Virus record (IMG/VR): IMGVR_UViG_3300034522_000052
Location: 1 to 60,412 of that record
Reading direction: 5' to 3' (one strand)
DNA: 60,412 nt
DNA from: a virus
Position numbers and translations under genes: made by a program. Shown piece after piece: positions 23,129-48,520 of the stretch; position 1 is the stretch's first letter, and each line of letters begins with the position of its first letter. A model generated the notes under the pieces. The model was not told the origin of the DNA, did no database searches, and saw nothing but the letters and a program-made list of their open reading frames with translations.

Positions 23129-23157
23129 TTGAATATACCCCTCCCCGGCGTTAGTAT
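23129..23157 (+). promoter_or_regulatory. Late promoter unit A
   Basis: TTGAAT, 17 bp, TAGTAT, with CCCCGGCGT directly before the -10. Start predicted near 23164. Shares spacing, the GCGT before the -10 and the ATGGCC downstream with units B, C and D. Drives the lysis, terminase and portal genes. Confidence 0.75.
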
Positions 23158-23168
23158 TGCTCAAAGAT

Positions 23169-23198
23169 GGCCAGAGTCTCCGTGACCCTGGCCTTTTT
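23169..23198 (+). terminator. Hairpin terminator next to late promoter A
   Basis: GGCCAG/CTGGCC stem, extended by GTC/GAC inside, followed by TTTTT. It would end an RNA of about 35 bases unless RNA polymerase is modified. Confidence 0.75.
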
Positions 23199-23206
23199 CA
23201 TTTCTG

Positions 23207-23226
23207 GCCCGCCTCGTGCGGGCTTT
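23207..23226 (+). terminator. Second hairpin before the holin gene
   Basis: GCCCGC/GCGGGC with a 5-base loop, followed by TTT and GTCGTTTCTG. The same tail occurs after hairpins at 33072 and 36806. Confidence 0.55.
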
Positions 23227-23244
23227 GTCGTTTCTGGAGGGGCG

Positions 23245-23562
23245 ATGACGCCTGACAAGGATCCACAGAACTACAGCGTGCTCGCCTATCTGGCATTCGG
23301 CGGGCTGAGCGTATGGGGAGGGCTTGTGACCTACATACAGACGGTGAAACGCGAGGGAAGGAAATTCCGATGGGCTGAGGCGCTGCTCCAGGTGGTGGTG
23401 TCAGGGTTCGCCGGGATGTTGACCATGCTGCTGAGCTGGTACATCGCAGCCCCACTCCCGTTGTGCGGCTTCATGGCTGGCCTGGCTGGCTTGATGGGAT
23501 CGAAAGCACTGGAGCTGTACGAACGCCGGGCAACCGGCTGGATGACTGGGGGGAAGGGGTAA
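23245..23562 (+). CDS. LydA-like holin
   Basis: 105 residues from ATG 23245 with GGAGGGGCG upstream. Three hydrophobic segments: VLAYLAFGGLSVWGGLVTYI, LLQVVVSGFAGMLTMLLSWY and LCGFMAGLAGLMGSKALE. Pattern and size match LydA-type phage holins. It should open the inner membrane for the muramidase; its stop overlaps the next start (TAATG). Confidence 0.85.
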   Translation: MTPDKDPQNYSVLAYLAFGGLSVWGGLVTYIQTVKREGRKFRWAEALLQVVVSGFAGMLTMLLSWYIAAPLPLCGFMAGLAGLMGSKALELYERRATGWMTGGKG

Positions 23563-24110
23563 TGAGTATTCGCCTGCAGGTTATTGATGAGGTGATCCAG
23601 CGTGAGGGGGGTGACAAGTTCACTGATCGCGCAGAGGACCGCGGCGGCCCGACTCGCTGGGGGGTGACTCAAGCCACCGCTCGCCAGTTTGGCTACACCG
23701 GCCATATGCGCGACTATCCAAAGGCTGAGGCGGTAAAGGTCTACACCTCTTATTGGAACCAGATGCGCCTCTCATCCATTGAGGTGATTGATGCCGATCT
23801 GGCCACCTACCTGTTTGACTATGGGGTCAACTCCGGTCCAGGTCGGGCAGCAAAAGACCTTCAGCGCCTGCTGAATGTGTTGAACGACAGGCAAAAGCTC
23901 TATCCGGACGTGAAAGCAGACGGGGCCATAGGGCCTCGTTCTCTTTCTGCGCTGGAGAGTTACATCAAGGCGCGCGGTACCGGTGGCAAGCGCCTGCTGG
24001 CCGAGGCTGTGAACTCCCTTCGAATTGCCCACTGCATCACACTGGCTGAGCGCCAGGAGTCGCAGGAGGCCAATGCCTACGGCTGGCTGAGCCGGGTTTG
24101 TAACCTGTGA
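23562..24110 (+). CDS. Endolysin, GH108 N-acetylmuramidase
   Basis: 182 residues. REGGDKFTDRAEDRGGPTRW holds the catalytic Glu (REGG) of GH108. LFDYGVNSGPGRAAKDLQRL and DGAIGPRSLSALESY form the second half and the peptidoglycan-binding part. No signal peptide, so it depends on the holin. It cleaves the glycan strands at lysis. Confidence 0.92.
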   Translation: MSIRLQVIDEVIQREGGDKFTDRAEDRGGPTRWGVTQATARQFGYTGHMRDYPKAEAVKVYTSYWNQMRLSSIEVIDADLATYLFDYGVNSGPGRAAKDLQRLLNVLNDRQKLYPDVKADGAIGPRSLSALESYIKARGTGGKRLLAEAVNSLRIAHCITLAERQESQEANAYGWLSRVCNL

Positions 24111-24117
24111 GGTAGAT

Positions 24118-24342
24118 ATGGAGCACATCGTTGAGGTGGTCATCAACTGGATTGTCATCCTGATGGCTGTAGTGGGCGGCGCGTCCATGGTGGTGCAGGG
24201 GCTGGCCAAGATCGCGGCCGTCACCCCTTCCACCCGGGACGATGAGGTGATCGGGAAGGTGCAGGCCTTCTTGGTTGGCCTGACCAAGGTGCTGGATAAG
24301 CTGGCTATGAACCTGCCGGCTGAGAAAGCCAGGAAGCAATAA
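24118..24342 (+). CDS. Small single-span membrane protein of the lysis cassette
   Basis: 74 residues; one membrane segment at 7-30 (VVINWIVILMAVVGGASMVV), then a soluble amphipathic tail. It lies between endolysin and spanin genes and could be a second holin or an antiholin. Ribosome site GAGGTAG. Confidence 0.7.
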   Translation: MEHIVEVVINWIVILMAVVGGASMVVQGLAKIAAVTPSTRDDEVIGKVQAFLVGLTKVLDKLAMNLPAEKARKQ

Positions 24343-24343
24343 C

Positions 24344-24574
24344 ATGAACAGCTTGCTCCAACTGCTCGACATTCTAACGGCCCTTCTGGGCCGTTGGCTT
24401 AAGCAGGAGAGGGCAAGGGAGGCGCAGGAAAGCCATGACAAGAATCATGCGGACCCACAGGGGCGTTTTGCTGAGCGTTTCGGTGCTGCTTCTGGCCAGT
24501 TGCCAGATAGCCCCAAGTCAAACAGTGAACTGCCCGCCACCCACACCCAGGCTGACATGGAGCCCCGCCGCTAA
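24344..24574 (+). CDS. Short Rz-like inner-membrane spanin
   Basis: 76 residues: N-terminal hydrophobic stretch LLQLLDILTALLGRWL and a charged periplasmic part. Shorter than lambda Rz, but the o-spanin gene is nested in another frame, which is diagnostic for Rz/Rz1 pairs. Confidence 0.7.
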   Translation: MNSLLQLLDILTALLGRWLKQERAREAQESHDKNHADPQGRFAERFGAASGQLPDSPKSNSELPATHTQADMEPRR

Positions 24575-24653
24575 TGGCGGGGTTTGTCTTTCTGGGGAAT
24601 CCACAGCCGACTTACTGGACTATCTCGATGGACTGGAGCGATGCGGTGGTTAA
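24435..24653 (+). CDS. Rz1-like outer-membrane spanin lipoprotein
   Basis: 72 residues; signal peptide with lipobox LLAS-Cys23 (VLLSVSVLLLASC) and a Pro-rich stretch (NCPPPTPRLTWSP). It begins inside the Rz-like gene in the +1 frame. With Rz it should fuse the inner and outer membranes at lysis. Confidence 0.8.
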   Translation: MTRIMRTHRGVLLSVSVLLLASCQIAPSQTVNCPPPTPRLTWSPAANGGVCLSGESTADLLDYLDGLERCGG

Positions 24654-24807
24654 TGGCGTGACCGTGACCGGGGTTGTTACTCACGTGAGGGAGTATGACG
24701 GGAGTCAGGCCCTGGTCACCCTGAATACTGGCGTCTCCGTTCTGGTACCGGCAACTCACGAGCCCGCACCAGGCGACACCATCGTTGAAGGCGAGCTATC
24801 TCTCTAA
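24628..24807 (+). CDS. Small hypothetical beta-rich protein (59 aa)
   Basis: MDWSDAVVNGVTVTGVVTHV..., ending PGDTIVEGELSL one base before the next ATG. An alternative start at 24574 would overlap Rz1 almost fully; neither has a good ribosome site. Unknown role, between the lysis and packaging genes. Confidence 0.5.
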   Translation: MDWSDAVVNGVTVTGVVTHVREYDGSQALVTLNTGVSVLVPATHEPAPGDTIVEGELSL

Positions 24808-25698
24808 ATGGCAAAGACCGACTGGGCACAGCTCAATGCAGAGTTCCTGCAAGAGCATGACGCGACCGGCATCAGTGCGAAAGACTGGTGTGACAGCCGC
24901 GGCCTGAACTACAACTCGGCGCGTCGCTATTTGAAATCTCGGGGGCAATCCCCTGCGCAACCTGACAAATCTCGCGTAGCTGCGCAATCTGCGCATTCCG
25001 AAGTGCGCAAAACTACGCAGTCTGCGCAAAGTGCGCAAACCAAGGGGAATGAGGCCAAGGCCAAAGGGGGAGAGCGAAGAGGGGAGAAGTCCTCGGCATC
25101 CACTTATACCCCGGCCAGCTTGGACCAGAACTCGAAAACCAACTCGGGGCGCCAGCCAGATGGGCGCTTTGACAAGGGAAATCGGGAGTCCGTAGGCAAC
25201 CAAGGCAACCAGAACCCACCGAATAAGTGGCAACCCGGCGACCGCCCGGCGCTGACCCATGGCGGTTATGCCAAGTTCCTCGATGCCGAGGAGCTGTTCG
25301 ACCAGGCCCGCGAGCTGCAATTACGCGACGAGCTGGACTTCACCCGGGCTCGCGTCATCTCCGTCACCAAGCTGCTCAAGGGGCTGCAGCAGGACCTGGT
25401 CACGGCCAGCGAGATGACCGACCGGATTGCGCTCTACGACAAGATCCTGAAAGCCGAGCAGGCCCTCGACCGCAATATCCAGAGGATTGAGTCCATCGAG
25501 CGAACCCTAAGCGCCCTTCGCATCGACGAAGTGAGTGTGCCGAAGATTGAGGAAGATACTCGCCGGATCCGGGCTGCGGCCCGCAAGCTGACCGCAGAAG
25601 CGGACCGGCTGGAGAAGGATGGCGGCAGCGAGTCCACCCCGGTCAGCGAGATGGTCACCGAGCTGCAGGGGATGGGGACTGGCGGGCTGATGTCGTAA
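24808..25698 (+). CDS. Terminase small subunit
   Basis: 296 residues. N-terminal helix-turn-helix (LNAEFLQEHDATGISAKDWC, SRGLNYNSARRYLKSRG) of phage terminase small subunits. A low-complexity Ser/Gln/Lys linker (55-150) follows, then WQPGDRPALTHGGYAKFLDA and a long coiled C-terminus. It should bind the packaging start site and regulate TerL. A cluster of TGCGCAA repeats in its own gene is a candidate pac site, as in P22. Confidence 0.8.
   Translation: MAKTDWAQLNAEFLQEHDATGISAKDWCDSRGLNYNSARRYLKSRGQSPAQPDKSRVAAQSAHSEVRKTTQSAQSAQTKGNEAKAKGGERRGEKSSASTYTPASLDQNSKTNSGRQPDGRFDKGNRESVGNQGNQNPPNKWQPGDRPALTHGGYAKFLDAEELFDQARELQLRDELDFTRARVISVTKLLKGLQQDLVTASEMTDRIALYDKILKAEQALDRNIQRIESIERTLSALRIDEVSVPKIEEDTRRIRAAARKLTAEADRLEKDGGSESTPVSEMVTELQGMGTGGLMS
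24981..25038 (+). repeat. TGCGCAA repeat cluster, candidate pac site
   Basis: TGCGCAA at 24981, 25004, 25023 and 25032 plus TGCGCAT at 24990, within the small terminase gene. P22-type phages keep pac inside this gene. The protein encoded here is low-complexity (QSAHSEVRKTTQSAQSAQ), so DNA-level selection is plausible, but so is a simple repeat. Confidence 0.45.
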
Positions 25699-25717
25699 AA
25701 AAAATTAAAACAATAAT

Positions 25718-25727
25718 GTGGTAAAAT
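25718..25727 (+). promoter_or_regulatory. Extended -10 promoter of the moron gene
   Basis: TGTGGTAAAAT: TG one base before TAAAAT, in an A-rich stretch right after the small terminase stop. No good -35, as usual for extended -10 promoters. Confidence 0.5.
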
Positions 25728-25763
25728 GGCTTCGTGAATAACCACACCAGAAAAGGAATTGTG

Positions 25764-26198
25764 ATGGAAATCAATGTTGAGCATGTGAAATATATCCTCT
25801 CTACATTTTTGGAGGGTGATAAAATGTATGTTGATCTGCTCCCAGACATTGTTGAAAATTACCCGATTCAGGGTGATGGTAATCATGATTTTATATTCCA
25901 CTACTTGATGCTTATTGAACAAGGTTTCATCGCCTCTGCGGCAACATGCGAAAGGTACCGTCCAAGCTCCTTAGGCTACTTAGGTCTTGAACGAATGGTT
26001 GATGGGTACGAGATAGGCCTTGGTAATACCCAAGTTAGAATTACAAAAGAAGGATATGAGTTTGCTAAGGCACTTAGTAAACCGACTATATATGACCGAA
26101 TGCAAGAGCTGTCCAGTGAGCCAATAAGTGTAATGGTAGATATAGGCAAAGAGCTTATGGTTGGTTACTTAAAACAGAAGTGCGGAATAATATCGTAA
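25764..26198 (+). CDS. DUF2513-like protein in a self-contained moron cassette
   Basis: 144 residues from ATG 25764 (AAAAGGAATT upstream). NHDFIFHYLMLIEQGFIASA and VRITKEGYEFAKALSKPTIY resemble DUF2513 phage/plasmid proteins, which look like winged helices. The gene is clearly more AT-rich than the terminase genes on either side and has its own promoter and terminator, so it is probably an insertion expressed in the lysogen. Function unknown. Confidence 0.65.
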   Translation: MEINVEHVKYILSTFLEGDKMYVDLLPDIVENYPIQGDGNHDFIFHYLMLIEQGFIASAATCERYRPSSLGYLGLERMVDGYEIGLGNTQVRITKEGYEFAKALSKPTIYDRMQELSSEPISVMVDIGKELMVGYLKQKCGIIS

Positions 26199-26215
26199 CC
26201 ACCCCTACTTAAACT

Positions 26216-26238
26216 AACCCGCTTCGGCGGGTTTTTTA
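26216..26238 (+). terminator. Terminator of the moron cassette
   Basis: AACCCGC/GCGGGTT with a TTCG-type loop and six Ts: a textbook intrinsic terminator in front of terL. Late transcription must read through it. Confidence 0.85.
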
Positions 26239-26255
26239 TTGCCTGAGATCCCACG

Positions 26256-27953
26256 ATGACCGAACTCGAAACCTCCGCCATGACCGAGCAGGAGCAGATG
26301 GCCTACATCCGCTCGAAGCTCAGCGATAAGTGGTGGCGGATGAACAACCTCTACATGATCGAGAACGAGCAGGGCCAACTGGTGCGCTTCCGGCTGCGCC
26401 CGGCGCAGGAGCTGCTGTTCCGGACCATGTGGTACCTGAACATCATCCTCAAGGCGCGTCAGCTCGGATTCTCCACGGCTATCGACATCTATCTGCTCGA
26501 CGAGGCGCTGTTCAACAAGAACCTCAAGTGCGGGATCATTGCCCAGGACCTGACGGCTGCTGGCGAGATCTACCGCACCAAGATTGAAGTGCCGTTCGAT
26601 AACCTGCCTGGCTGGCTCAAGGCCCAGTTCAAGGTTGTGACCCGGCGCGGCGGGGCGAATGGCGGGCACATCCTGTTCCGGCACGGCTCCAGCATCCAGG
26701 TGGCCACCTCGTTCCGCTCCGGTACCGTGCAGCGCCTGCATGTCTCCGAACATGGGAAGATCTGCGCCAAGTATCCCGAGAAGGCCAAGGAGGTGCGAAC
26801 CGGGACGCTGCAGGCGATCCACCCGGGCGCCGTGGCCTTCATCGAGAGCACAGCCGAAGGGGTAGGGGGCGACTTCCACGCTATGAGCATGAAGTCCCTC
26901 GAGCTGGCCAGGGCATCCGGTGAGCTCAGCCAGCTCGATTGGAAGTTCCACTTCTTCGCCTGGTGGCAGGATCCCAAGTATCGCGCCGACGTGCCGGCAT
27001 TCGGCGTAGTGATGAGCAAGACCCAGGCGGAGTATTTCGCCGCGGTCGAGAAGTCGATGGGTTGCACCATTACCGACGAACAGCGGCAATGGTACGTGCT
27101 GAAAGAGTCCACCTTGGGCGCCGAGATGAAGCAGGAGTTCCCCAGCACGCCGCTGGAGGCCTTCCTGACCTCTGGGCGCCGGGTGTTCGACCCCATCCAT
27201 ACCATGGATGCCGAGGGCGATTGCATGGCCCCACTCATCGTCTACGACATCGACCCGGTGACCGGCAAGCGCGAGAAGGCTCGCAAGCCGGAGAAGCTGG
27301 ACGAGCGTGGCCAGCGCTCCCTCGAGAACATGCTGCTGGTCTGGGAGCTGCCAGACCCCGACGAGGATTACGCCATCGGCGCCGACGTGGCGGAAGGGCT
27401 GGAGCACGGCGACCGTTCAAGCCTCGACGTGACAGCCAAGAGTGACGGCCGTCAGGTGGCCCACTGGTTCGGGCATCTGGATCCCGGGCTGTTTGCCCAA
27501 CTGCTGGCCCACGTTGGAAGGTTCTACGGCAGCGCAGAGCATGGCCCGGCCTACATCGGGCCAGAGCGCAACAACCACGGCCACGCTGTGCTGCTCAAGC
27601 TCCGTGAAATCTACCCGACCCGACGCATCTACACCCAGGAGCACATCGACCGGGACCGCGACGACGAGACGCCACGCCTCGGATGGCTCACCACCCGGCA
27701 GTCCAAGCCGATCCTCGTCGATGGCCTCAAGGCCCTGCTGCGTGCCGGGCAATCCGGGATCCGCTGGATAGGCACCATTCACGAGGCTACCACCTACGTC
27801 TACGACAAGAGCGGCAGCATGAACGCCCAGGACGGCTGCTACGACGACCAGCTCATGAGCTACATGATTGCCCAAGAGATGCTTGCCCGGATGCCGGCCC
27901 GCATCGTCAAACCTGAATCCTTCCGCAAACCCAAGCACTGGATGGCCAACTGA
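26256..27953 (+). CDS. Terminase large subunit
   Basis: 565 residues. Motor domain with IILKARQLGFSTAIDIYLLD (Walker-A-like RQLGFST near residue 69) and VAFIESTAEG (Walker-B/coupling region). C-terminal nuclease with DYAIGADVAEGLEHGDRSSL (first Asp) and later Asp residues (CYDDQLMSY). It translocates and cuts DNA during packaging. Its stop overlaps the portal start by one base (TGATG). Confidence 0.93.
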   Translation: MTELETSAMTEQEQMAYIRSKLSDKWWRMNNLYMIENEQGQLVRFRLRPAQELLFRTMWYLNIILKARQLGFSTAIDIYLLDEALFNKNLKCGIIAQDLTAAGEIYRTKIEVPFDNLPGWLKAQFKVVTRRGGANGGHILFRHGSSIQVATSFRSGTVQRLHVSEHGKICAKYPEKAKEVRTGTLQAIHPGAVAFIESTAEGVGGDFHAMSMKSLELARASGELSQLDWKFHFFAWWQDPKYRADVPAFGVVMSKTQAEYFAAVEKSMGCTITDEQRQWYVLKESTLGAEMKQEFPSTPLEAFLTSGRRVFDPIHTMDAEGDCMAPLIVYDIDPVTGKREKARKPEKLDERGQRSLENMLLVWELPDPDEDYAIGADVAEGLEHGDRSSLDVTAKSDGRQVAHWFGHLDPGLFAQLLAHVGRFYGSAEHGPAYIGPERNNHGHAVLLKLREIYPTRRIYTQEHIDRDRDDETPRLGWLTTRQSKPILVDGLKALLRAGQSGIRWIGTIHEATTYVYDKSGSMNAQDGCYDDQLMSYMIAQEMLARMPARIVKPESFRKPKHWMAN

Positions 27954-30079
27954 TGATCAACGCCCAACCCAAGGCCCCTGAAAAAGGCGGCCTCGATACC
28001 CCGCGCCTGCTCAAACTGATGAGCGATATCAACGGCCAGCCGGACTGGCGAAGCCTTGCCAATCGAGCTTGCGCTTACTACGACAACGACCAACTGCCAC
28101 CTGCGGTAAAAAAGGCACTCGATGAACGCGGGCAGCCCATCACGATCCACAACCTCATCGCCCCGACTATCGACGGCGTGCTGGGGATGGAGGCCAAGAG
28201 CCGCACCGATCTGATGGTGATCGCCGATGACCACGACGACGAGCTGGAGCAGCTGGCGGAGGCCGTCAACGCTGAATATGCCGATATGTGCCGCCTGGGT
28301 GGACTGGACCGCGCCCGAGGCGAGGCGTATGGCGGCCAGATAAAGACCGGTGTGGGCTGGGTTGAGGTATGCCGCCGCGATGACCCGTTCGGCCCGCGCT
28401 ACAAGTTCAGCAACGTCCACCGAGACGAGGTTTATTGGGACTGGCACAGCAGGGAGCCGGACCTAAGCGACTGCCGCTGGTTGATGCGCCGCCGCTGGGT
28501 CGATCTGGATGAGGCCAAGACCATGTTCCCGAGCAAGGCACAGGCGCTGCAGTGGGGCGTCAACGACTGGGAGGGGATGGTAAGCCTGACCGCCATCGAG
28601 GGGATGGATCCCAACCTAGTCAGTGCCTATGACGAGTGGAGTCAGTTCAGCGGCAAGGAGATAGAGTGGTGCAGCCGGGAGCGGGACCGGGTGCTGCTGC
28701 AAGTGGTCTACTACCGCACCTACGCCATGCGTCAGGTGCTGAAGCTCGACTCAGGCCGGGCGTTGGAATACGACAAGACCAATCAACTGCATCTCGCTGC
28801 TGTGGCCATGGGGCGCGCCAAGCTGGAACGCTGCCCGGTGGCCGTGATCCGGGAATCCTGGTTCGTCGGCCCTCATCATCTGGTTGATCGACCCTGCTCT
28901 GCTCCCCACAACATGTACCCGCTGGTGCCGTTCTGGGGGTATCGCAAAGACCGCACCGGCGAACCCTATGGGCTGATTGCTCGAGCCATGCCGGCGCAGG
29001 ACGAGGTGAACCTGCGGCGTATCAAGCTCACCTTCCTGCTGCAGGCCAAGCGCGTCATCATGGACAAGGACGCCACCAACATGAGCCGGGATCAGGTGCT
29101 GGAGCAAGTCGAGCGCCCCGATGGCTATATCGAGCTCAACCCTGACCGAGCCAACAAGACCAGCGTGAGCGATGCCTTCAAGGTAGAGCAGGACTTCAAC
29201 GTGGCGGCCCAGCAGTTTCAGGTGATGCAGGACTCGGTGAAGCTGATCCAGGACACCATGGGGGTTTATGCCGCCTTCCTGGGCCAGGGCTCCACCGGAC
29301 AATCTGGTGTGGCCATCAGCAACCTGGTGGAGCAGGGGGCAACCACGCTTTCCGAGATCAACGACAACTACCGGATGGGCTGCCAGCAAGTGGGGCAATT
29401 GGCACTGGCATACCTGCTGGAAGACATGGCCAGCAAGCGCAACTACAAGGTGACAGTGAACCGGGATGACCCCCGCCGCCGCAAGGCCGTGGTGGTCAAT
29501 GTGGAGCAGGAGGATGGCAAGCTCACCAATGATGTGACCCGGCTGCGGGCCCATATCGCACTGGCGCCGATCCAGCAAACCGCCGCCTATAAGCAGCAGT
29601 TGGCTGAGCGGATGACCCAGGCCATGTCACAACTCCCGCCCGAGGCTGCCGGCGCTTGCTTTGACCTGCTGGTCGAGCTGATGGATGTACCGCGCAAGGC
29701 CGAGTTTGTGGAGCGGATCCGCAATGCCCTGAACATCCCGAAAGACCCGGACGAGATGAGCGACGATGAGCGCGCTGCCGCCGAGCAGCAGGCTCAGCAG
29801 GCCCAGATGCAGCAGGAGCTGGCCATGCGCGAGATGCAGGCCAAGCTGGCCGAGCTGGAGGGCAAAGCCGCCAAGTGGCAGGCAGAGGCTCAGCGCATCG
29901 CCAAGCTGACCGACTCTATCCGGTTTGAGGATGCTCTCAAGCAGGCCCAGACTGGCAAGACACTTCAGGAGATGGAGCGCCTTGCTGCCGAGCAACAGAG
30001 CATCCAGGGGGAGCAGGCTTTGCTGCAGGCTCAGCTGTTGGACACCATCCAGCAGCAGATCGACGCCATCGCGCTCTGA
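27953..30079 (+). CDS. Portal protein (P22-like)
   Basis: 708 residues, close to P22 gp1. Conserved VEVCRRDDPFGPRYKFSNVH, EVYWDWHSREPDLSDCRWLM and YGLIARAMPAQDEVNLRRIK. A long C-terminal helical barrel rich in Gln and Ala (residues about 600-700) ends the chain. A dodecameric ring at the packaging vertex is expected. Confidence 0.92.
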   Translation: MINAQPKAPEKGGLDTPRLLKLMSDINGQPDWRSLANRACAYYDNDQLPPAVKKALDERGQPITIHNLIAPTIDGVLGMEAKSRTDLMVIADDHDDELEQLAEAVNAEYADMCRLGGLDRARGEAYGGQIKTGVGWVEVCRRDDPFGPRYKFSNVHRDEVYWDWHSREPDLSDCRWLMRRRWVDLDEAKTMFPSKAQALQWGVNDWEGMVSLTAIEGMDPNLVSAYDEWSQFSGKEIEWCSRERDRVLLQVVYYRTYAMRQVLKLDSGRALEYDKTNQLHLAAVAMGRAKLERCPVAVIRESWFVGPHHLVDRPCSAPHNMYPLVPFWGYRKDRTGEPYGLIARAMPAQDEVNLRRIKLTFLLQAKRVIMDKDATNMSRDQVLEQVERPDGYIELNPDRANKTSVSDAFKVEQDFNVAAQQFQVMQDSVKLIQDTMGVYAAFLGQGSTGQSGVAISNLVEQGATTLSEINDNYRMGCQQVGQLALAYLLEDMASKRNYKVTVNRDDPRRRKAVVVNVEQEDGKLTNDVTRLRAHIALAPIQQTAAYKQQLAERMTQAMSQLPPEAAGACFDLLVELMDVPRKAEFVERIRNALNIPKDPDEMSDDERAAAEQQAQQAQMQQELAMREMQAKLAELEGKAAKWQAEAQRIAKLTDSIRFEDALKQAQTGKTLQEMERLAAEQQSIQGEQALLQAQLLDTIQQQIDAIAL

Positions 30080-30082
30080 CAG

Positions 30083-30111
30083 TTGCTTTCCTGACCTGCC
30101 AGCGTTACGAT
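30083..30111 (+). promoter_or_regulatory. Late promoter unit B
   Basis: TTGCTT, 17 bp, TACGAT, with CCAGCGT before the -10, 4 bases after the portal stop. Same layout as unit A. Start predicted near 30118. Confidence 0.7.
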
Positions 30112-30122
30112 TTCCCCAACAT

Positions 30123-30150
30123 GGCCCAGTCTCTCGAGATTGGGCCTTTT
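30123..30150 (+). terminator. Hairpin next to late promoter B
   Basis: GGCCCAGTC/GATTGGGCC (9 bp with one G-T) around TCTCGA, followed by TTTTC. It begins about 5 bases after the predicted transcript start. Confidence 0.75.
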
Positions 30151-30236
30151 CTTTGGTTGAGTTGTCAATCAGTAGCGTAACTGACTCCCTTTGAGTATGA
30201 TGTGTGGTGAGTCTAATGACTCCCGTACTTGTTTTA

Positions 30237-31306: not shown

Positions 31307-31329
31307 CCCACCACCCATTTCAATAAGCC

Positions 31330-31360
31330 AACCCCGACCACTGTGTCGGGGTTTTTGTTT
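31330..31360 (+). terminator. Terminator before the major capsid gene
   Basis: ACCCCGAC/GTCGGGGT with TTTTT. It may balance scaffold and capsid expression in a read-through transcript. Confidence 0.8.
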
Positions 31361-31377
31361 TCATGTAGGAGAGGACC

Positions 31378-32595: not shown

Positions 32596-32610
32596 TCCAC
32601 CCACCAGAGC

Positions 32611-32630
32611 GAGGGGGTTGATACCCCCTC
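32611..32630 (+). terminator. Hairpin after the capsid gene
   Basis: GAGGGGGT/ACCCCCTC with a short loop 15 bases after the stop. No T-run; more likely an mRNA stabiliser than a terminator. Confidence 0.4.
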
Positions 32631-32663
32631 CTGTTGATATCTGACCAGATAAGGAGCCATGTC

Positions 32664-33053: not shown

Positions 33054-33071
33054 GGCTGCCGATCACTGTCC

Positions 33072-33096: not shown

Positions 33097-33119
33097 GTTT
33101 CTGAATAGGAGTCATCGCC

Positions 33120-41400: not shown

Positions 41401-43557
41401 GCCATTTCGAGGAGAGTGTCAGAGGTTGAAGCGCAGTTCAGCGGCGACCTTGATGAGGTGAATGCGAGGGTTGCGTCCGAGGAGCTGGCCCGAGCGAACC
41501 AAGATGAGGCGCTCGCCCAGCAGATCAGCACTGTCGATGCGGCGTTCAAGGCCGCCGATACGGCACTGTCTGCATCTCTCGCTGAATCGAGCAAAGCCAT
41601 GGCAGATGCCGACCGAGCGCTGGGTGAGCGGATCAGCACCCTTGATGTGACGGTCGGAGAGAACTCAGCCAGCATCACTGAGCTGCAGCAGGCCGTGGTG
41701 AGCAATGAGGAGTCGCTGAGCCAGCGCCAGGACAAGCTGGAATCAGAGGTAGATGTTGGCGCCGTCAGCCAGGTTGAAGGTGCCTTGGCCGGGGATGAAC
41801 GTGACCGAGAGAACCGAAAGGCTCGCGGCGTCATTCTCCAACAGCAGAGCACGCTGGCGAATCAACAGGAGGCGCAAGCCAGGACTGTTGAGCAACTGAC
41901 CGCTGAGTTTGATGCTGAAAATGCGGAGATCAGGGCGCAGATCACCAATGAGCAGTTGGTTCGATCAACGGCAGATGAAGCCCTGGCACAGAAGACATCT
42001 GTGCTTGAAGCGCAAATCGAGGGGGTGGATCAGTCCCTCTCAGCCAGTATTGCCGAGGTGGCCAGGGTCAGCGCTGATGCTGATGCCGTCATGACCGAGA
42101 AGCTGAATCAGCAACAGTCCACAATGCAAACGGCGGATGCTGAGCTTTCTAGTCGCATCAATGAAGAGGCAACCACCCGGGCTGATGCCGTCGAGTCGCT
42201 GGCCAGTCAGATCCAGCAGGTAACGGCAAACTATCAGCAGGGAGATCAGCAACTCCAAGGCCAGATCACGGCAGAGTCAGTCGCTCGTGCCGATGCGATG
42301 CAAGCCCTCGGAAGCCAGATTGATACGGTGTCTGCTGTTGCAGGTAGCAAGAATAAAACGTTCTTCCAAGCCACTGCCCCAGGGTCAGCGATGGGCACCG
42401 GTGATCTGTGGTTTGATACCGACAACAACAACAGGCCGTACCGTTACAGTGGAACTGCTTGGGTTGCCACTGACGACCCGAGGATTGCAGCCAATGCCGC
42501 CGCCGTTCAACTCCAGAGCCAAGCTATTGCAGACTTGCAAAATGGTGCCCAGGCCATGTGGACAGCGAAAGCCAGCGCGGGCCAGATCACTGCCGGGATA
42601 GGGTTGATTGCAAACTCTGACGGCACGAGTCAGGTGGCTATCTCTGCCTCTCAGGTGTTCGTATTCAACCCGAATAGTTCAACGCCCATGGCGCCGCTGT
42701 TTGCCATCGACAACGGGCAGGCCGTGATTGCCGAGGCCATCATCCGAAAGGCCACCATCCAGATCATCCAGTCAGAGAAGATCACCGCCGACTACATCAA
42801 GGCCGGGGCGAGCATCACAACCCCGTTGATTAACGGTGGCCAGATCGATATGGGCAATGCCTTCCTGTCTGGAGGGGCTGCAGGGTTCGGTAAAGGCGGG
42901 CCATATGGTGGTTGGTCATGGATGTGGCATACGATCATCTATGCCGATGGCTCGCTCTACACTGACCGTTTATTCGCCTCGAACGGATCATTTACAGGTA
43001 CAGTCAACGCCAATGCAGGCACATTCCAGAATGTCACCATCGAGGAAACCTGCAATGTGAAAGGCACTGTCTATGCCAACAAGATTGTTGGGGATGTGCT
43101 GAGTGCTAAGGTTGTCAGTGCGAACTCAACAGACAGCGCAGGGAGTGGTCATGTAGTGGCATCGGCGTCCGTAAAAGGTTCGAGGACTCATGCCGCAAAC
43201 TTGTATTGCCTTGGGGTAACAGTTGAGGTGTATGCGTCGGGTGGATATCGGCCAGGTGGTAACGATCAGGATGTGCCGGCGACCATATCGGGCCGCCTCG
43301 TTCTGACAAATTCAGCCGGGGGCATCATCGCGACAGCCCCATTCAAGGTGAGATCAGAAAGCAACATTTCAATTGCCGAAGCCAGCCAATCGATAACAAT
43401 CCAAGGTGGGTTTGACGCTGGTACTGGCGCGGCCTCCATATCCTGCGCGGTCATCATAGATTCTAAGTCTGCGTCATACGGCGGTAGTGCAGGTGTTAGG
43501 GTCCCCGCTCAAAGCATTGCATTCTGCTTGCTACCCTCAGGGAGCCAGTTTAATTGA
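38464..43557 (+). CDS. Giant central tail fiber / host-specificity protein (1697 aa)
   Basis: Residues about 75-150 are a fibronectin type III domain (VLVEWDPPRYRGHAHAEIWR). Residues 200-1290 are a long coiled coil with two repeat systems: three near-identical 31-residue units (ILKPKVDEIEVIRPKVAAIE...) and 265-residue units starting GALAGDERDRENRKARG. The C-terminus (LFAIDNGQAVIAEAIIRKAT, IQSEKITADYIKAG) is the DUF1983-type end of lambda J-like proteins, and the last 150 residues are a distinct, lower-GC tip. A trimeric fiber is likely. Confidence 0.82.
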   Translation: MAKKPAYRAGRDQAATAESVELLTGQRGDRLDKAVTFRELAALGLSTLRPGAGGVYVPGKNLDLFPPGQMEFPHAPVNVIANGAFHTVLVEWDPPRYRGHAHAEIWRAESDNQAQATLVGTSSANLFSDAIGKGATFYYWVRFVNGKDDRGPFQGMQGIVAETSRDVQDILDELQGKIEKSHLVQSLLNPIEDVPQLQLDVSILKPKVDEIEVIRPKVAAIEGKIPSIEQDIAILKPKVDEIEVIRPKVAAIEGKIPSIEQDIAILKPKVDEIEVIRPKVAAIEGKIPSIEQELAGLDERQKVAQELLDDAQQQLGMSSIEIGLVQDRLNAKLDKYKGDFDSFRDAVFVVDPESGSITMDAVNAVREELHSSITGVQQELDAVSGQITSKADNVTVDSQGQRITEAEQRINGLDASLSQTVTRGEFTGEQQRVTQIGQELDATKGVLAQKATQQEVDEQGERLANAESKLTVHTDELSSQAQRLDGLAAQITQGDETLRASITELARVSAESDQVTTQRVSGLEVRAGASEAKIQALEEIFADDGGITAGRFDAITAELELQRGNDDDNASAAIDGALAVDERDRETRKAFGAIRTEQRVILTEQQAQAQRTADMEVKFEAKDAATQARISSVEKVTSDADSALAQRIDNVTTEFKAADAQVNADILSLARSSAAADEALSLRQDQLAATLSSAAADIAANITREESARVTADEAISRRVSEVEAQFGSDLEDTNARLATEELTRASQGEALAQQISTVDAAFKAADTELSASLAESSKALADAKQALGERISTIDVTVEENAASITELQQAVVSNEESLSQRQDKLESEVDVGAVSQVEGALAGDERDRENRKARGVILQQQSTLANQQEAQARTVEQLTAEFDAENAEIRAQITNEQLTRATADEALSQRISVVDAEFKAANADTNAVISALEQSSASADEALSLRQDQLAATLSSATADLAANITQEESARVTADEAISRRVSEVEAQFSGDLDEVNARVASEELARANQDEALAQQISTVDAAFKAADTALSASLAESSKAMADADRALGERISTLDVTVGENSASITELQQAVVSNEESLSQRQDKLESEVDVGAVSQVEGALAGDERDRENRKARGVILQQQSTLANQQEAQARTVEQLTAEFDAENAEIRAQITNEQLVRSTADEALAQKTSVLEAQIEGVDQSLSASIAEVARVSADADAVMTEKLNQQQSTMQTADAELSSRINEEATTRADAVESLASQIQQVTANYQQGDQQLQGQITAESVARADAMQALGSQIDTVSAVAGSKNKTFFQATAPGSAMGTGDLWFDTDNNNRPYRYSGTAWVATDDPRIAANAAAVQLQSQAIADLQNGAQAMWTAKASAGQITAGIGLIANSDGTSQVAISASQVFVFNPNSSTPMAPLFAIDNGQAVIAEAIIRKATIQIIQSEKITADYIKAGASITTPLINGGQIDMGNAFLSGGAAGFGKGGPYGGWSWMWHTIIYADGSLYTDRLFASNGSFTGTVNANAGTFQNVTIEETCNVKGTVYANKIVGDVLSAKVVSANSTDSAGSGHVVASASVKGSRTHAANLYCLGVTVEVYASGGYRPGGNDQDVPATISGRLVLTNSAGGIIATAPFKVRSESNISIAEASQSITIQGGFDAGTGAASISCAVIIDSKSASYGGSAGVRVPAQSIAFCLLPSGSQFN
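39069..39341 (+). repeat. Three tandem 93-bp repeats in the fiber gene
   Basis: Units start at 39069, 39162 and 39255. Copies 2 and 3 are identical over nearly the full length and copy 1 differs by GCT for GCC. 93 bp keeps the frame, so unit number can vary and lengthen or shorten the coiled coil by 31 residues. Confidence 0.9.
40186..41960 (+). repeat. 795-bp (265-codon) internal duplications in the fiber gene
   Basis: Homologous units begin near 40186, 40981 and 41776 (third partial). The block 40885-41165 recurs at 41680-41960 almost without change, while the rest of each unit has diverged, pointing to older duplication followed by recent copying. Confidence 0.85.
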
Positions 43558-43916
43558 TGAAAGCCGCTCTGGGCCGGATAGGAAAATCGGTAGGAGAGCC
43601 CAACCTACCAAGCAACATCGCCAGCGCCTGCCATCAAAAGCAGGCGTTTTTGTTTGTGCGCGGTGCTGACGGGTTTGTGCTCAAGCCACAGGCAGAAGAT
43701 GGCGTGATCGGCGTCCTGGTCTGGGTGGGGTGGGGTGATGGCGGGGCACCGGAGCGACACCTGCCGGAAGTGAAGCGCCTGGCACGCCTGATTGGGGCAC
43801 GCTGGCTGCGCTTCCACTCGGCGCGTAAGGGGTGGCTCAAGGTCGCACCAAGAATGGGATGGGTCCGTCAGCCGGATGATGCTGATGGGCTCTATGTGTT
43901 TCAGATCAACCTATGA
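43557..43916 (+). CDS. Small virion-region protein, possibly GNAT-like (119 aa)
   Basis: ATG overlaps the fiber stop (TGATG). FVRGADGFVLKPQAEDGVIG, VKRLARLIGARWLRFHSARK and RMGWVRQPDDADGLYVFQI give a beta-alpha pattern seen in phage proteins with an acetyltransferase-like fold. The match is by eye and weak. Confidence 0.55.
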   Translation: MKAALGRIGKSVGEPNLPSNIASACHQKQAFLFVRGADGFVLKPQAEDGVIGVLVWVGWGDGGAPERHLPEVKRLARLIGARWLRFHSARKGWLKVAPRMGWVRQPDDADGLYVFQINL

Positions 43917-43926
43917 GGTGTAGGTG

Positions 43927-44559
43927 ATGGGGAAGGGTGGCTCGAACGAAATTCAGGAGACCGAGGCTCAGAAGGCTGCGGCCAGTGTGGCCATGGAGCA
44001 GTGGGACCTCTACAAGAATGACCTGCAGCAGTACGAGGACCTCTTCATGGAGAAGGTGGATGACCTCAACAGCGAGGGGGAGTTCGACAAACTGGCAGGC
44101 ACGGCAGCGCTTGGCACTGCTCAATCCTTTGGTGAGGCGCGCGCCGGGCTGGCTGACTCCATGGCTGCCAGTGGAGTAGATCCAACCAGCGGCAGGTACC
44201 AGGAGGCGATGGAAGGACTGGCAACGGACCAAGCCCTGAGTCAGACCGATACCACTAACCGCGCACAGTCCAGCCAGCAGGACAAGCATGTTGCTGGGCT
44301 CAAGGATGTGGTGAGCATTGGCGCAGGGCAGAAGGCTGAATCGCTGGCTGGTATGGGGGATGTGGCCACAACCAGCTTGCGCAAGGCGACCAGTGATGCA
44401 CAGAGCTCTTACCAAAGCCAGCAGGCGACGGCTGGTTTGGTGGGAACCCTGGCAGGAGCTGCCACCTCGTATGGGCTGGCCAGCCTGAAAGCGCCGGCTG
44501 CAACGGAGATCAAGAAAATCAGCCCGACAGCATCCGTGCTGCAGGGCAAGGGTTACTAA
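43927..44559 (+). CDS. Internal virion protein candidate (210 aa)
   Basis: EAQKAAASVAMEQWDLYKND, a helical middle and a Gly/Ala C-terminal segment (ATAGLVGTLAGAATSYGLAS). Ser/Gln/Ala-rich composition and position fit an ejected internal protein. Confidence 0.6.
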   Translation: MGKGGSNEIQETEAQKAAASVAMEQWDLYKNDLQQYEDLFMEKVDDLNSEGEFDKLAGTAALGTAQSFGEARAGLADSMAASGVDPTSGRYQEAMEGLATDQALSQTDTTNRAQSSQQDKHVAGLKDVVSIGAGQKAESLAGMGDVATTSLRKATSDAQSSYQSQQATAGLVGTLAGAATSYGLASLKAPAATEIKKISPTASVLQGKGY

Positions 44560-44568
44560 GGGGGTTCC

Positions 44569-44949
44569 ATGGGTTACGCCGCAGACACTTACGCCAAAAT
44601 CACCCGAGAGCAGTACCAGGACTGGAAGACGCGCTTCTACCCCAAGCAGCAGGAGCTGATGGAGTTGGCCACCAACGGCCAGCTACTGCGGGAGCAACTG
44701 GGGCGGGTGGATGAGAACAACGCCAACGCGCTCCGCTCAGCTCAGCAGGCTACGGCCAACCGCAATGCGCGGATGGGGCTGGGCACCAGCAGCAATGCCA
44801 ATGATAACAGCCAGGGGCTGCGCATGGCGCTGATGACGGCAGGCACCGAGAACGGCCTGCGTGAACAGGAGCGGACCCGGCAAATGGGGATCCTGACCGG
44901 CGCGGATGCGGGGCTGCGTGAGGCAATTAAAACCGGAGGGGGTGTGTGA
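44569..44949 (+). CDS. Internal virion protein candidate (126 aa)
   Basis: MGYAADTYAKITREQYQDWK, a helical middle rich in Asn/Ala (NARMGLGTSSNANDNSQGLR). Ribosome site AAGGGGG. Belongs with its neighbours to a row of small helical proteins; function inferred from context only. Confidence 0.55.
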   Translation: MGYAADTYAKITREQYQDWKTRFYPKQQELMELATNGQLLREQLGRVDENNANALRSAQQATANRNARMGLGTSSNANDNSQGLRMALMTAGTENGLREQERTRQMGILTGADAGLREAIKTGGGV

Positions 44950-45206
44950 TGGGGTACGGCATTTTGGATATCGGCGGTCAGACTCGCCAGCAAGGTCTGG
45001 CAGGCCTGCGCGATGCGGCCAACCGAGAGTCGGAGATGGAGGCTGCCAACAAGAGTCTCAAGACCGCTCGCAAGGGGCAAACCCTGAGCACCATCGGTAC
45101 TGGCGCATCGATGGGCGCCATGTTGGGCATGGCGGGTTCACTCGGTGGCCCTCTGGGCGCACTGGCAGGTGCTGGGGTTGGTTTTCTGGCAGACAGCTTG
45201 TTTTAA
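44949..45206 (+). CDS. Glycine-rich small ejection-type protein (85 aa)
   Basis: ATG overlaps the previous stop (TGATG). Polar first half; second half is a membrane-active Gly/Ala stretch (TGASMGAMLGMAGSLGGPLG, ALAGAGVGFLADSLF) with GxxxG spacing, as in proteins forming the DNA-ejection channel. Confidence 0.6.
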   Translation: MGYGILDIGGQTRQQGLAGLRDAANRESEMEAANKSLKTARKGQTLSTIGTGASMGAMLGMAGSLGGPLGALAGAGVGFLADSLF

Positions 45207-45212
45207 GGAGGC

Positions 45213-46835
45213 ATGATGAGCGTATCGGGATTGGCGGAAGGTTTTCTGGCTGGCTTCAACACCATGGACCGCTACCAGCGGGGCCAGAAAGAGGACGCTC
45301 GGCAAGAGCGCGAGTTGGGGCTGCGCGATGCAATGGTGAAGCAGAACAAGGAGAACTCAGATCGCGACTTCTCTCTTCGGAAGGCCACTTTTGACAACTC
45401 GGTTGAGCAACAGAAAACAGCCAAGGAGCAATGGGGGCAGGAGTTTGACCTCAAAAAGAAAGAGGCGGGTAGCCTGCGGGATTACCGCAATGCCAACTTG
45501 GTGCTCGCTCAGGCTGCGGAGGGGAGGGCCAAACAAGAGAGTGACTGGCTGGTAAGTGAGAGAGTAAACCAAAAGCTTCTTGAGGATAGCCTGCCATTGA
45601 TTGACTCTGCATTCCAAGCGAGATTAAGGGGCGAGGCGGATCCGGCAGGGTATGTTGACCTGATGAAGAACAAGGAGTTCCAGAAGGGCGGAGCCCTCTA
45701 CCGGTTCAATTTTGACCGATACAGTGATAATCAGCACCTTCAGGACGCTCGGCAAATCGTGCCGCAAATTTCTGGCCTGATGAAGGATATCGACTCTGGG
45801 AAATTGAGTTGGGAAAATGAGGATGATCAGCGAGCCATTGTCCAACGCATCAACTCGTCGAAAATAATTGGCCCATTAAATACCATCTTGGAGCAGGAGG
45901 TTAAGCGCGGTATTGGCGAGGTCGATGCGGCATCTGGTAAAAAAATCACAGATAAAGAGCTGACGCATGTCATTCCAACTCAAGATGGGCGCGGTGTCAT
46001 GTATGGACTGAAGGTAACTTATGCTGACGGCAGCACTGCTGATAGCGTAGTGACCGAAGGTCGAAGCACGCAGCCAGGCGATCCGGTTAAAGTCTCAAAA
46101 TGGGGGGATCTGATAAAGACGGTGTACCAGCGTAGCCAGATGTACCATCAGCTTAGTGGGGCAGGGCAAAACCGCGAGACACTAAACCGTGTTGGTCAGA
46201 ACCTTGGCTTAGCCCAACAAGCTGACTTGAAAGGTCATAAGCAGGCGAGTGTTGACTTGATCAAGGAGCTCAACAAAAACGTAGCAAAAGTTCTCTCCAG
46301 TGATGCAGTGGGCAGTCTGGAAGAGAGGCAAGCACAAGCCAAACAACTACTCGCAAGTTACGAAGAAAACCAAGCCAAAATAGACAGCATCTATGGCGTC
46401 AGCAATGGTGCAGCGCCGGATGAATCATCTGGTGTCAATCCTGAGCAGTGGAGCCAGGGCAACCCTGAACGCCAGCAGTTTATGAGGGAGGCTGAGCAGG
46501 GGGGGTGGCTTGGCAGCTATCTTGAAAGCCCGGAAAAAATGGACGGTGCCTTTGCGTTATGGCGCCAAGCTGTTGCGAAAGAGGAGGCAGCCAAGCAAGC
46601 GGCGGCATCTGCTGAGAGGATTCGTGAAATTGAAGGGCCGAAAGAACCACAGCGGCCTAGCATTGCGCAAGCCAGACAGCTGGCGAGCGCCAATATGGCC
46701 ACAGGTTCAGGAAAACCGCCCCAGCCATACGGCAAACCAGTTGACGTCATGGGTTTAATCAAGGCTCACAACCAAAGTAACGCTGACAAGCAGGCTTCTG
46801 ACGGTTACGGATTGTACCAGCATGGTTACAAGTAA
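45213..46835 (+). CDS. Internal virion protein (540 aa)
   Basis: Almost entirely helical. MSVSGLAEGFLAGFNTMDRY, RQERELGLRDAMVKQNKENS, a central beta patch (DGRGVMYGLKVTYADGSTAD) and a Gln/Ala-rich C-terminus. AAGGAGG upstream. Position before the giant protein suggests a large ejection protein. GC content drops in 45450-46400. Confidence 0.65.
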   Translation: MMSVSGLAEGFLAGFNTMDRYQRGQKEDARQERELGLRDAMVKQNKENSDRDFSLRKATFDNSVEQQKTAKEQWGQEFDLKKKEAGSLRDYRNANLVLAQAAEGRAKQESDWLVSERVNQKLLEDSLPLIDSAFQARLRGEADPAGYVDLMKNKEFQKGGALYRFNFDRYSDNQHLQDARQIVPQISGLMKDIDSGKLSWENEDDQRAIVQRINSSKIIGPLNTILEQEVKRGIGEVDAASGKKITDKELTHVIPTQDGRGVMYGLKVTYADGSTADSVVTEGRSTQPGDPVKVSKWGDLIKTVYQRSQMYHQLSGAGQNRETLNRVGQNLGLAQQADLKGHKQASVDLIKELNKNVAKVLSSDAVGSLEERQAQAKQLLASYEENQAKIDSIYGVSNGAAPDESSGVNPEQWSQGNPERQQFMREAEQGGWLGSYLESPEKMDGAFALWRQAVAKEEAAKQAAASAERIREIEGPKEPQRPSIAQARQLASANMATGSGKPPQPYGKPVDVMGLIKAHNQSNADKQASDGYGLYQHGYK

Positions 46836-47155: not shown

Positions 47156-47180
47156 GCGTGACCTCTGGCAAAAAAAATAT

Positions 47181-47251
47181 CTACATAATGTAGCAATTTC
47201 TCACTTGACTGAATAGCTACATGATGTAGAGTTTGTGTCTACATGGTGTAG
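47181..47251. promoter_or_regulatory. Three operator palindromes, cassette 1
   Basis: CTACATAATGTAG (47181-47193), CTACATGATGTAG (47217-47229) and CTACATGGTGTAG (47239-47251). They fill the gap between the divergent ribbon-helix-helix genes. A plus-strand promoter with TTGACT at 47205-47210 would place its -10 in or next to the second operator. Confidence 0.85.
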
Positions 47252-47265
47252 GTATTGGAGCGACG

Positions 47266-47421
47266 ATGAAGACGAGCAGCATCCCGCCATTTGGCGTTCG
47301 GATGGAAAAAGAACTGAAAGACTTGCTGGCCAAGCAGGCAAGGAAAAATGGGAGATCTCTTAACTCTGAAGTGGTCCAGATCCTGAAAGAGGCACTTAAG
47401 TATGAAGAGAAAGATGTGTGA
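47266..47421 (+). CDS. Arc-like repressor, cassette 1 (51 aa)
   Basis: MKTSSIPPFGVRMEKELKDL, LAKQARKNGRSLNSEVVQIL: a minimal Arc protein (P22 Arc has 53 residues). First gene of the rightward antirepressor transcript, so it should limit its own expression as Arc does. ATG behind TTGGAG. Confidence 0.88.
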   Translation: MKTSSIPPFGVRMEKELKDLLAKQARKNGRSLNSEVVQILKEALKYEEKDV

Positions 47422-47435
47422 GGGTGTAAATGGCT

Positions 47436-47465
47436 CGGCCCCGGCGGGTGCAACCGCCAAGGCCG
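47436..47465 (+). promoter_or_regulatory. Conserved two-part hairpin before antirepressor 1
   Basis: CGGCC, 2 bases, GGCGG, 6-base loop, CCGCC, 2 bases, GGCCG. It lies 15 bases after the Arc-like stop. The same 5-2-5-6-5-2-5 layout occurs in cassette 2 at the same distance, with a paired change inside the inner stem. Confidence 0.8.
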
Positions 47466-47500
47466 AAGGATGTAAATCAAACCAAGTTGAGGACCTGTGT

Positions 47501-48298
47501 ATGAATTTACACGAGAAGTGTAACGCTTCTGATACTGACAGCCAAGTGGCGCTGATCCCGGTTAACCAGAGCCAGGTCGGTGATGATCTGGTGCAGACCG
47601 TCAATGCTCGCGAGCTTCATGCCTTTCTGGAGGTTGGGAAGGTGTTTGCCGCCTGGATCCAAGAGCGCATAGAGCAGTTTGGCTTCGTTGAAAATCAAGA
47701 CTTTATAGTTATTTCCGAAACTGGAAAAAACCCTAAAGGTGGGCGACCTAGCAAGGAATACTTCCTCGCACTGGACATGGCCAAAGAACTGTCCATGGTT
47801 GAGCGCAACGCGAAGGGGAAGCAGGCTCGCCAATACTTTATCCAGTGCGAGCGCGTGGCAAAGTCACCGAACAACAACCCCATGCTGGTCGCTTCCACCA
47901 TGAATAGCGATCAACTGGCCCTGTTGATGGGGGAGGTTAAGCGGCGTGAAGCGGTGCAGCGTGAGCGAGACGAGGCGATCCGCACCAAGGCTTGCATCTC
48001 CAGCAGCCGAGAGGCGTCCGTAATGGCCAAGCTGGGCCATACCAAACGTGAGAACGAAGCGCTCAAAGAGCAATTGGGAGTTGGCACCAAGCACAAGAGC
48101 GTGAAGGGTGCAGGGCTGGAGCAGTTCTATATCGATGAGGGTGGCAACCGACGCCAGACCGCCAACCGGCTCAAGAAGATTGCGCTGGAGATGGGATTGG
48201 CTGGCGACATCATCGACATTGAAGACCCTAACTACGGCACGGTGAAGGCGTATCCGGTCAGTGTGATAGAGCGTTTCAAGCTGGAGGTGGCGGCATGA
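47501..48298 (+). CDS. AntA/AntB-type antirepressor, cassette 1
   Basis: 265 residues from ATG 47501 with GAGGA upstream. Residues 25-105 form the AntA/AntB N-domain (QTVNARELHAFLEVGKVFAA, GRPSKEYFLALDMAKELSMV, NAKGKQARQYFIQCER). The C-terminus (GAGLEQFYIDEGGNRRQTAN...) is a second small domain. Should bind and inactivate the CI-type repressor or a related one. The upstream frame through the hairpin is open but is probably leader. Confidence 0.87.
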   Translation: MNLHEKCNASDTDSQVALIPVNQSQVGDDLVQTVNARELHAFLEVGKVFAAWIQERIEQFGFVENQDFIVISETGKNPKGGRPSKEYFLALDMAKELSMVERNAKGKQARQYFIQCERVAKSPNNNPMLVASTMNSDQLALLMGEVKRREAVQRERDEAIRTKACISSSREASVMAKLGHTKRENEALKEQLGVGTKHKSVKGAGLEQFYIDEGGNRRQTANRLKKIALEMGLAGDIIDIEDPNYGTVKAYPVSVIERFKLEVAA

Positions 48299-48438
48299 GT
48301 GCAACCCAACTGCAAGACGAGCTGACCGCCTTGCTCGGCGATCTGGATGCTATTGACCTGACCCCAGAGGATCGCAGGCTGATTGCCAATCGGATTGAGC
48401 GCATGATGCCGGTTGAATATTCACCCGCCCAGCGTTAG
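48295..48438 (+). CDS. 47-residue helical peptide following antirepressor 1
   Basis: MSATQLQDELTALLGDLDAI, DLTPEDRRLIANRIERMMP. ATGA overlap with the antirepressor gene. Clearly related to the peptide at 59698 in cassette 2 and less closely to the one at 59957. Late promoter D overlaps its end. Confidence 0.75.
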   Translation: MSATQLQDELTALLGDLDAIDLTPEDRRLIANRIERMMPVEYSPAQR

Positions 48439-48441
48439 CAT
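48413..48441 (+). promoter_or_regulatory. Late promoter unit D
   Basis: TTGAAT, 17 bp, TAGCAT, with CCCAGCGT before the -10. It overlaps the last codons and stop of the 47-residue peptide gene. Start predicted near 48448; reads into the giant virion gene. Confidence 0.7.
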
Positions 48442-48485
48442 CTCTCCATCGTCGGTCAGTCTGCATGCTGATCGCCCCATCTCAA

Positions 48486-48520
48486 AAGCCCCGAACGGTT
48501 CGCCGCTCGGGGCTTTTCTT
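48486..48520 (+). terminator. Hairpin terminator after late promoter D
   Basis: AAGCCCCGA/TCGGGGCTT with a 12-base loop and a TTCTTTT tail, about 40 bases after the predicted start. Confidence 0.78.

Follow-up and report, generated by a model that had tools for sequence, protein, structure and literature searches.

In phage P2 and its satellite P4, one zinc-finger phage protein (Ogr or delta) serves several dispersed late promoters, activating initiation from a site upstream of the promoter rather than acting by antitermination, and P4 itself carries responsive promoters. In Q systems, sigma is held by a -10-like sequence, and Q loads during the pause that results; the Q element is situated between the -35 and -10 boxes (PMC6606751, PMC9371919). 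The terminator at PA0807, a target of the Q-type antiterminator AlpA, starts 26 bp past the transcription start (PMC7969949, PMC9371919), and in the Caulobacter gene transfer agent system GafY has about 18 target promoters (PMC11150451). The subject of the present work is a 60,412-base virus sequence (IMG/VR record IMGVR_UViG_3300034522_000052; this whole stretch is referred to as the window), in which four promoter-hairpin units, A to D, are found downstream of a gene for a Q-like protein. A preliminary description had proposed that this one protein works at several dispersed sites, a proposal that is supported by homology, unit anatomy, co-variation of unit and protein, and co-occurrence across genomes. 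From the sequence, we consider it highly likely that the window represents a temperate phage in which four dispersed promoter-terminator units of the Q type, rather than one, drive the late region. A search of the open-access literature turned up no phage described as having several Q-dependent late promoters.

Four promoter-terminator units in the late region

Of the 24.9 kb compared, 81% aligns with Aeromonas phage phiARM81mr at 92% identity, and the two are collinear; the late genes of the window run on the + strand from the holin at 23248 to the giant gene ending at 56782. The coordinates and boxes first given for the four units were verified: all share TTGNNT, a 17-bp spacing, TANNAT, and the element (A/G)GCGT, and the blocks after A, B, and D bear the lysis/packaging, scaffold/capsid, and giant-protein genes ascribed to them (Table 1). 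The full pattern TTGNNT N12 RGCGT TANNAT has four perfect matches in the 60,412 bases, all on the + strand and corresponding to units A-D; allowing up to 2 mismatches raises the count to 10, where shuffles would lead one to expect 1.07, and not one of the 100 shuffles had as many as 10. RGCGT adjoins the -10 box and TTG stands at 17 bp in all four units and in relatives; RGCGT is the predicted Q-binding element between the -35 and -10 boxes. Where a classical Q phage would have a single late promoter, the window has four such units.

A third shared part, absent from the preliminary description, is a second -10-like hexamer at one fixed offset past the -10 box (e.g., CAACAT, CATCAT, AAAGAT, CACAAT, CATAAT). 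In the five groups (99 units in all), 97-100% of units keep A as the second and T as the sixth base of this hexamer, and neighboring offsets have no such conservation; it starts 5 bases past the -10 box in the RGCGT groups and 4 bases past it in Pasteurellaceae, the GCGCTAAATT group, and G327. Lambda pR', as read from its record, has the form TTGACT-17-TAAATT-6-AACGAT. A search for sites of this type (TTG, 17 bp, TANNNT, 4-6 bases, NANNNT) returned exactly units A-D on the late strand of the window, with one site on the opposite strand, and exactly the four units of phiARM81mr on its late strand. Each unit has, in its initial transcribed region, a -10-like sequence at which a pause is predicted, as in lambda. 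The sequence ATGGCC just downstream is indeed common to units A-C, as earlier noted; a shared start codon was considered and rejected, since other groups have GATACC or AATAGCC, without ATG, at that place. The feature conserved there is the hexamer (xANNNT), which ends at this point.

In every unit a terminator lies between the promoter and the first late gene. The hairpins of A-C begin about 5-6 bases past the predicted start, as had been claimed, and fold with z-scores of -4.3 to -4.8 against shuffles; that of A has paired changes on both arms in L052 (GACC/GGTC), and that of B a paired change at the stem base in L056. For unit D, the hairpin originally placed about 40 bases on corresponds to a true terminator about 36 bases on, and an imperfect hairpin also lies directly after the start.

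The Q-like protein

The Q-like protein belongs to TIGR02642 (232.5 bits against a cut-off of 101.4). Single-sequence searches returned DnaJ-type zinc fingers, TIGR02642, and phrog_17382, both of the latter being families without recorded function, and no open-access paper naming TIGR02642 was found. The single-sequence Pfam and PDB searches gave DnaJ-like zinc fingers and the like and no lambda Q, so that profile-profile comparison was needed to find the relationship. A profile of 31 members matches lambda Q in PDB (E 3.7e-5), and hhalign against an alignment of eight lambda-Q-type proteins gives 98.1% (E 1e-13, 219 columns). The N-terminal and zinc-finger halves match lambda Q separately (95.9% and 96.5%), whereas crossed halves score 0.1-0.3%. 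The four zinc-finger cysteines are invariant in the 31 homologues and align with those of lambda, and the AlphaFold model of the protein has a pLDDT of 87.7. The gene stands before the lysis genes, the next late gene being the holin, and in phiARM81mr NinB and other early genes lie upstream of it. On these comparisons, the protein is by sequence a divergent member of the lambda-Q family.

Table 1. Coordinates of the Q-like gene, the units, and the late blocks (window positions, except in the last row)
Feature	Position	Strand	Sequence or content	Remarks
Q-like gene	22378..23076	+	TIGR02642 / phrog_17382, 232 aa	Zinc finger C160-C163-C176-C179
Unit A promoter	23129..23157	+	-35 TTGAAT, element GGCGT (23147-23151), -10 TAGTAT	Kept in relatives
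Unit A -10-like hexamer	23163..23168	+	AAAGAT	Offset fixed in 97% of Aeromonas-type units
Unit A terminator	23169..23198	+	Hairpin and U-tract	-16.5 kcal/mol, z -4.75
Block after unit A	23248..30079	+	Holin, endolysin, small genes, terminase, portal	Terminase large subunit named from the collinear phiARM81mr annotation
Unit B promoter	30083..30111	+	-35 TTGCTT, element AGCGT (30101-30105), -10 TACGAT	Kept in relatives
Unit B -10-like hexamer	30117..30122	+	CAACAT	
Unit B terminator	30123..30152	+	Hairpin and U-tract	z -4.29
Block after unit B	30380..36761	+	phrog_479 gene in scaffold position, major capsid, tail-fiber-like genes	
Unit C promoter	36765..36793	+	-35 TTGCCT, element GGCGT (36783-36787), -10 TAGGAT	Kept in relatives
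Unit C -10-like hexamer	36799..36804	+	CATCAT	
Unit C terminator	36805..36833	+	Hairpin and U-tract	z -4.80
Block after unit C	36857..46835	+	Internal virion protein (phrog_511), 1697-aa fiber-like protein, further late genes	
Unit D promoter	48413..48441	+	-35 TTGAAT, element AGCGT (48431-48435), -10 TAGCAT	Kept in relatives
Unit D -10-like hexamer	48447..48452	+	CATCGT	
Unit D hairpins	48453..48517	+	Imperfect hairpin without U-tract (48453-48474), then terminator (48484-48517)	Whole stretch z -4.90
Block after unit D	48545..56782	+	Giant gene	Listed ORF 48413-56782; first ATG past terminator 48545
Unit in satellite-like element	L178:14239-14267	-		

Conservation and divergence of the units

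The motif was expected upstream of late blocks in related phages. Among Aeromonas relatives found through the Q-like gene, some of whose records are fragments, every near-complete one has four perfect sites, all on the late strand; shorter records have fewer sites, and the reversed-pattern control is nearly absent. The four units are therefore not a product of chance. In phiARM81mr, all four sites are kept despite replacement of the sequence 5' of C and D. When 37 Aeromonas genomes were counted with a pattern that also demands the -10-like hexamer, the unit was present in 13 of the 13 with the Q-like gene versus 1 of the 24 without it (one-sided Fisher 3.9e-9, to be read in light of gene and sites sharing prophages and thus not being independent). 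The one gene-less genome that has the unit bears it on an integrase-bearing satellite-like element. A site in G031 (L068) that fits the promoter pattern, without the -10-like hexamer and hairpin, was set aside as chance. Because close relatives inherit sites together, such cross-genome counts do not amount to independent events; what counts as independent is that units recur in separate groups with other letters.

Homologues 20-34% identical to the window protein come with a unit sequence of their own, each prophage having 2-4 copies. Pasteurellaceae prophages (protein 20-26% identical) have two RCAGTAAGAT units, one before lysis and one after the giant gene. In the GCGCTAAATT group (23-26% identical), the units read GCGCTANNTTNNNNAANGAT; of its seven records of at least 45 kb, six have four units apiece and one has five (one-mismatch matches counted), all on the late strand and with zero in reversed controls. 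In G425 of this group, the units precede lysis/terminase/portal, phrog_479/capsid, the phrog_511 internal virion protein, and the giant gene, i.e., the same four borders as in the window. G273, with a homologue about 34% identical, has four units of the form RGCGTTASNCT; the Aeromonas genome G212 has four units, G327 two, and the 24-kb fragment G291 a single one. Thus, in at least four lineages the unit sequence has changed along with the protein, with the multi-copy layout kept.

A motif-blind search for 8-mers shared upstream of terminators recovered the repeated units in genomes of these groups; other shared 8-mers were few and had no promoter at a fixed position. It found no repeated units in the Stx phage, two Vibrio phages, or the weak homologues. 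The Stx phage ST2-8624 and the two Vibrio phages, which have the same capsid module, possess terminators and no repeated promoter, and none was found in the genomes with weak TIGR02642 homologues that were searched for units (G157, G230, G250, G108, G325). In the search for lambda-pR'-type sites, lambda and P22 had one pR' each and no repeated pair, the single late promoter of classical lambdoid control.

Among the Pasteurellaceae elements, the record of Pasteurella phage Pmp11 ends inside or just past a 7-kb unannotated stretch (L030:25867-32838); at that place related prophages continue into a second unit and additional late genes, and the Pmp11 record looks incomplete.

Units in satellite-like elements

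A satellite-like element is found in four Aeromonas genomes (G027, G162, G448, G444; L178, L182, L183, L184), with an integrase, a perfect unit 34 bases on, and small genes that include an AlpA-type regulator (recognized by Pfam in G162 and by eye in G027). A DUF927-type gene or a near-identical counterpart is present in the elements of G027, G162, and G448, and the unit stands before the alpA-primase region. G162 has no TIGR02642 gene at the limit used. Such an element would look like a satellite listening for the Q of its helper, switched on solely when the helper makes Q. That one Q-family antiterminator might open four late blocks and, in trans, the alpA-primase region of an unrelated satellite that copied the unit is a proposal that we consider as likely as not. 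A stray D-like unit was also seen in A. popoffii (L179:11669-11708, +), near an integrase (L179:12363-13532, -) and polysaccharide genes.

Gene starts and neighboring genes

The portal in the first block is of the P22 type and about 60% identical to the Stx-phage portal. Two listed ORF starts, 36803 and 23167, are ATGs inside the C and A hairpins, and p62 of phiARM81mr is likewise annotated from an ATG inside its C hairpin (L001:39090). The real starts are probably 36857 and 23248, the former, read by eye, being in frame and 3' of the hairpin. The fiber-like ORF of the third block contains three direct repeats with 93-bp spacing (39070-39284).

A P22 immI-like module lies just 5' of unit D (46922-48298), with the Ant antirepressor at 47402-48298; reading by eye adds a small Arc-like ORF that precedes it and, on the opposite strand, an ORF at 46922-47155. 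A short ORF of about 47 codons (48296-48439) has its TAG within the unit D -10 box, also by eye. The interval between the Q-like gene and unit A is a hotspot for accessory genes, occupying 1.4-6.7 kb in L010, L012, L018, L025, L028, L044, L045, L051, L053, and L054; its cargo includes an opposite-strand umuDC-like pair, a K+ transporter, a GGDEF protein, a PD-T7-3 defense homologue, and KilA-N/ANT. Genes for a reverse transcriptase and a "23S rRNA-intervening sequence" protein lie just 5' of unit C in phiARM81mr (L001:36971-39048), a pair as in diversity-generating retroelements that is absent from the window.

Mechanism and alternatives

The units, their anatomy and conservation, the change of the motif with the protein, and the descent of the protein are directly observed. 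Initiation, pausing, binding, and antitermination would follow from this anatomy taken together with the established Q mechanism, and Q-type antitermination at four dispersed promoters is the mechanism that we favor with considerable confidence. Sigma-70 RNA polymerase would start about 5 bases before the hairpin (at D, about 36 before the true terminator) and, without the phage protein, release an RNA of about 30-35 nt (about 70 nt at D). The -10-like hexamer, at about -1 to +5, is where sigma would pause early in elongation. The Q-like protein would bind RGCGT next to the -10 box, its site probably reaching into that box, and would load onto the paused polymerase, rendering it resistant to adjacent and later terminators. 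Until the protein is made, each block would be kept shut off by the terminator right after the start. Made once, the protein would open four blocks, namely lysis/packaging/portal, scaffold/capsid, internal virion and tail, and the giant protein. With a late region of about 34 kb, often broken by accessory genes, it may be of advantage to have four loading points. A lambda-Q relative very probably unlocks all four units.

The explanation that survives next best, though we think it unlikely, is that the protein activates initiation at several late promoters in the manner of Ogr, Mu C, or GafY, with the hairpins ending upstream transcription or insulating the blocks. One factor with several dispersed promoters is the rule in those systems, and the weak -10 boxes of the units would suit an activator. 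Yet such an activator needs no terminator, and one follows the start in nearly every unit, unrelated groups included. The constancy of the -10-like hexamer at one offset and of the -35 TTG at 17 bp in nearly all units also speaks for Q, as do the placement of the conserved box between -35 and -10, instead of in place of or upstream of -35, and the kinship of the protein with lambda Q. It is very improbable that the units are constitutive promoter-terminator pairs, independent of the Q-like protein, that make tiny RNAs or insulate accessory genes. Accessory genes do adjoin the units, and a promoter followed by a terminator would yield small RNAs, but the hairpins of A, B, and C differ in sequence, leaving no common small-RNA body. 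Moreover, the unit sequence follows the protein family rather than the capsid module, which the Stx and Vibrio relatives have without units, and the presence of the unit tracks the gene across the 37 Aeromonas genomes. Least credible is that the shared sequences are recombination borders linking exchangeable modules: units stand at block borders beside variable genes, and B, C, and D are each similar to the unit at the corresponding position in other phages, but the short boxes and their spacing are fixed, with free variation in the stretch from -35 to the element, A-D of one genome share no long identity, and other groups have the same plan in other letters.

Several points count against Q-type antitermination at the four units. 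Unit D lacks a terminator directly at its start, the L052 unit has a 20-bp spacing, and some fourth units of the GCGCTAAATT group lack TTG. As to the lambda-Q fold, a helix-turn-helix into which a zinc finger is inserted, the top PDB structure match of the modeled protein is the lambda Q loading complex (7ubn_Q; prob 0.84, TM 0.43-0.47), which is not significant (E 0.45). Finally, the downstream half of Q function is invisible in sequence.

Comparison with known systems

If correct, this reading assigns a function to TIGR02642/phrog_17382 and implies that Q control is not confined to a single promoter ahead of a long late operon: it can be a multi-site regulon, and in several lineages its sites have changed along with the protein. 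Such natural variety in the pairs of element and protein would offer a direct route to how lambda-type Q reads DNA, terminators about 30 bases past the start would make compact antitermination switches, and the satellite copies of the unit point to a means by which satellites could detect a helper phage.

The closest counterpart is the lambda Q/pR'/tR' system (Antiterm, PF03589), which shares a homologous zinc-finger protein encoded before the lysis genes, the 17-bp spacing, an element between -35 and -10, a -10-like hexamer (AACGAT), and a terminator downstream. It differs in having one unit rather than four dispersed ones, and in lambda the hairpin before the T-run lies well over 100 bases downstream, in contrast to about 5 bases past the start here (about 36 at D). 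The units here also lack the -35-like TTGACT after the -10 box, and the window protein is 20-25% alike to lambda Q and is not recognized by Pfam. The Q of phage 21 likewise combines an element between -35 and -10 with a -10-like pause sequence, but belongs to another protein family without similarity to lambda Q, its element consists of two direct repeats, and it has one site (PMC6606751). In the Caulobacter gene transfer agent, a phage-like cluster is opened by antitermination through an element between -35 and -10, and several promoters are controlled together; there, however, antitermination by GafZ has a single target, it is an activator, GafY, that serves many promoters, and no similarity to Q is reported (PMC11150451). 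AlpA of Pseudomonas aeruginosa is a Q-type antiterminator with more than one target promoter (alpB, PA0807), an element between -35 and -10, and a required -10-like sequence (PMC7969949, PMC9371919). It is a host cell-death regulator without reported sequence homology to Q and has two targets, not four phage late blocks; its action at two promoters is a precedent for multiple targets (PMC7969949).

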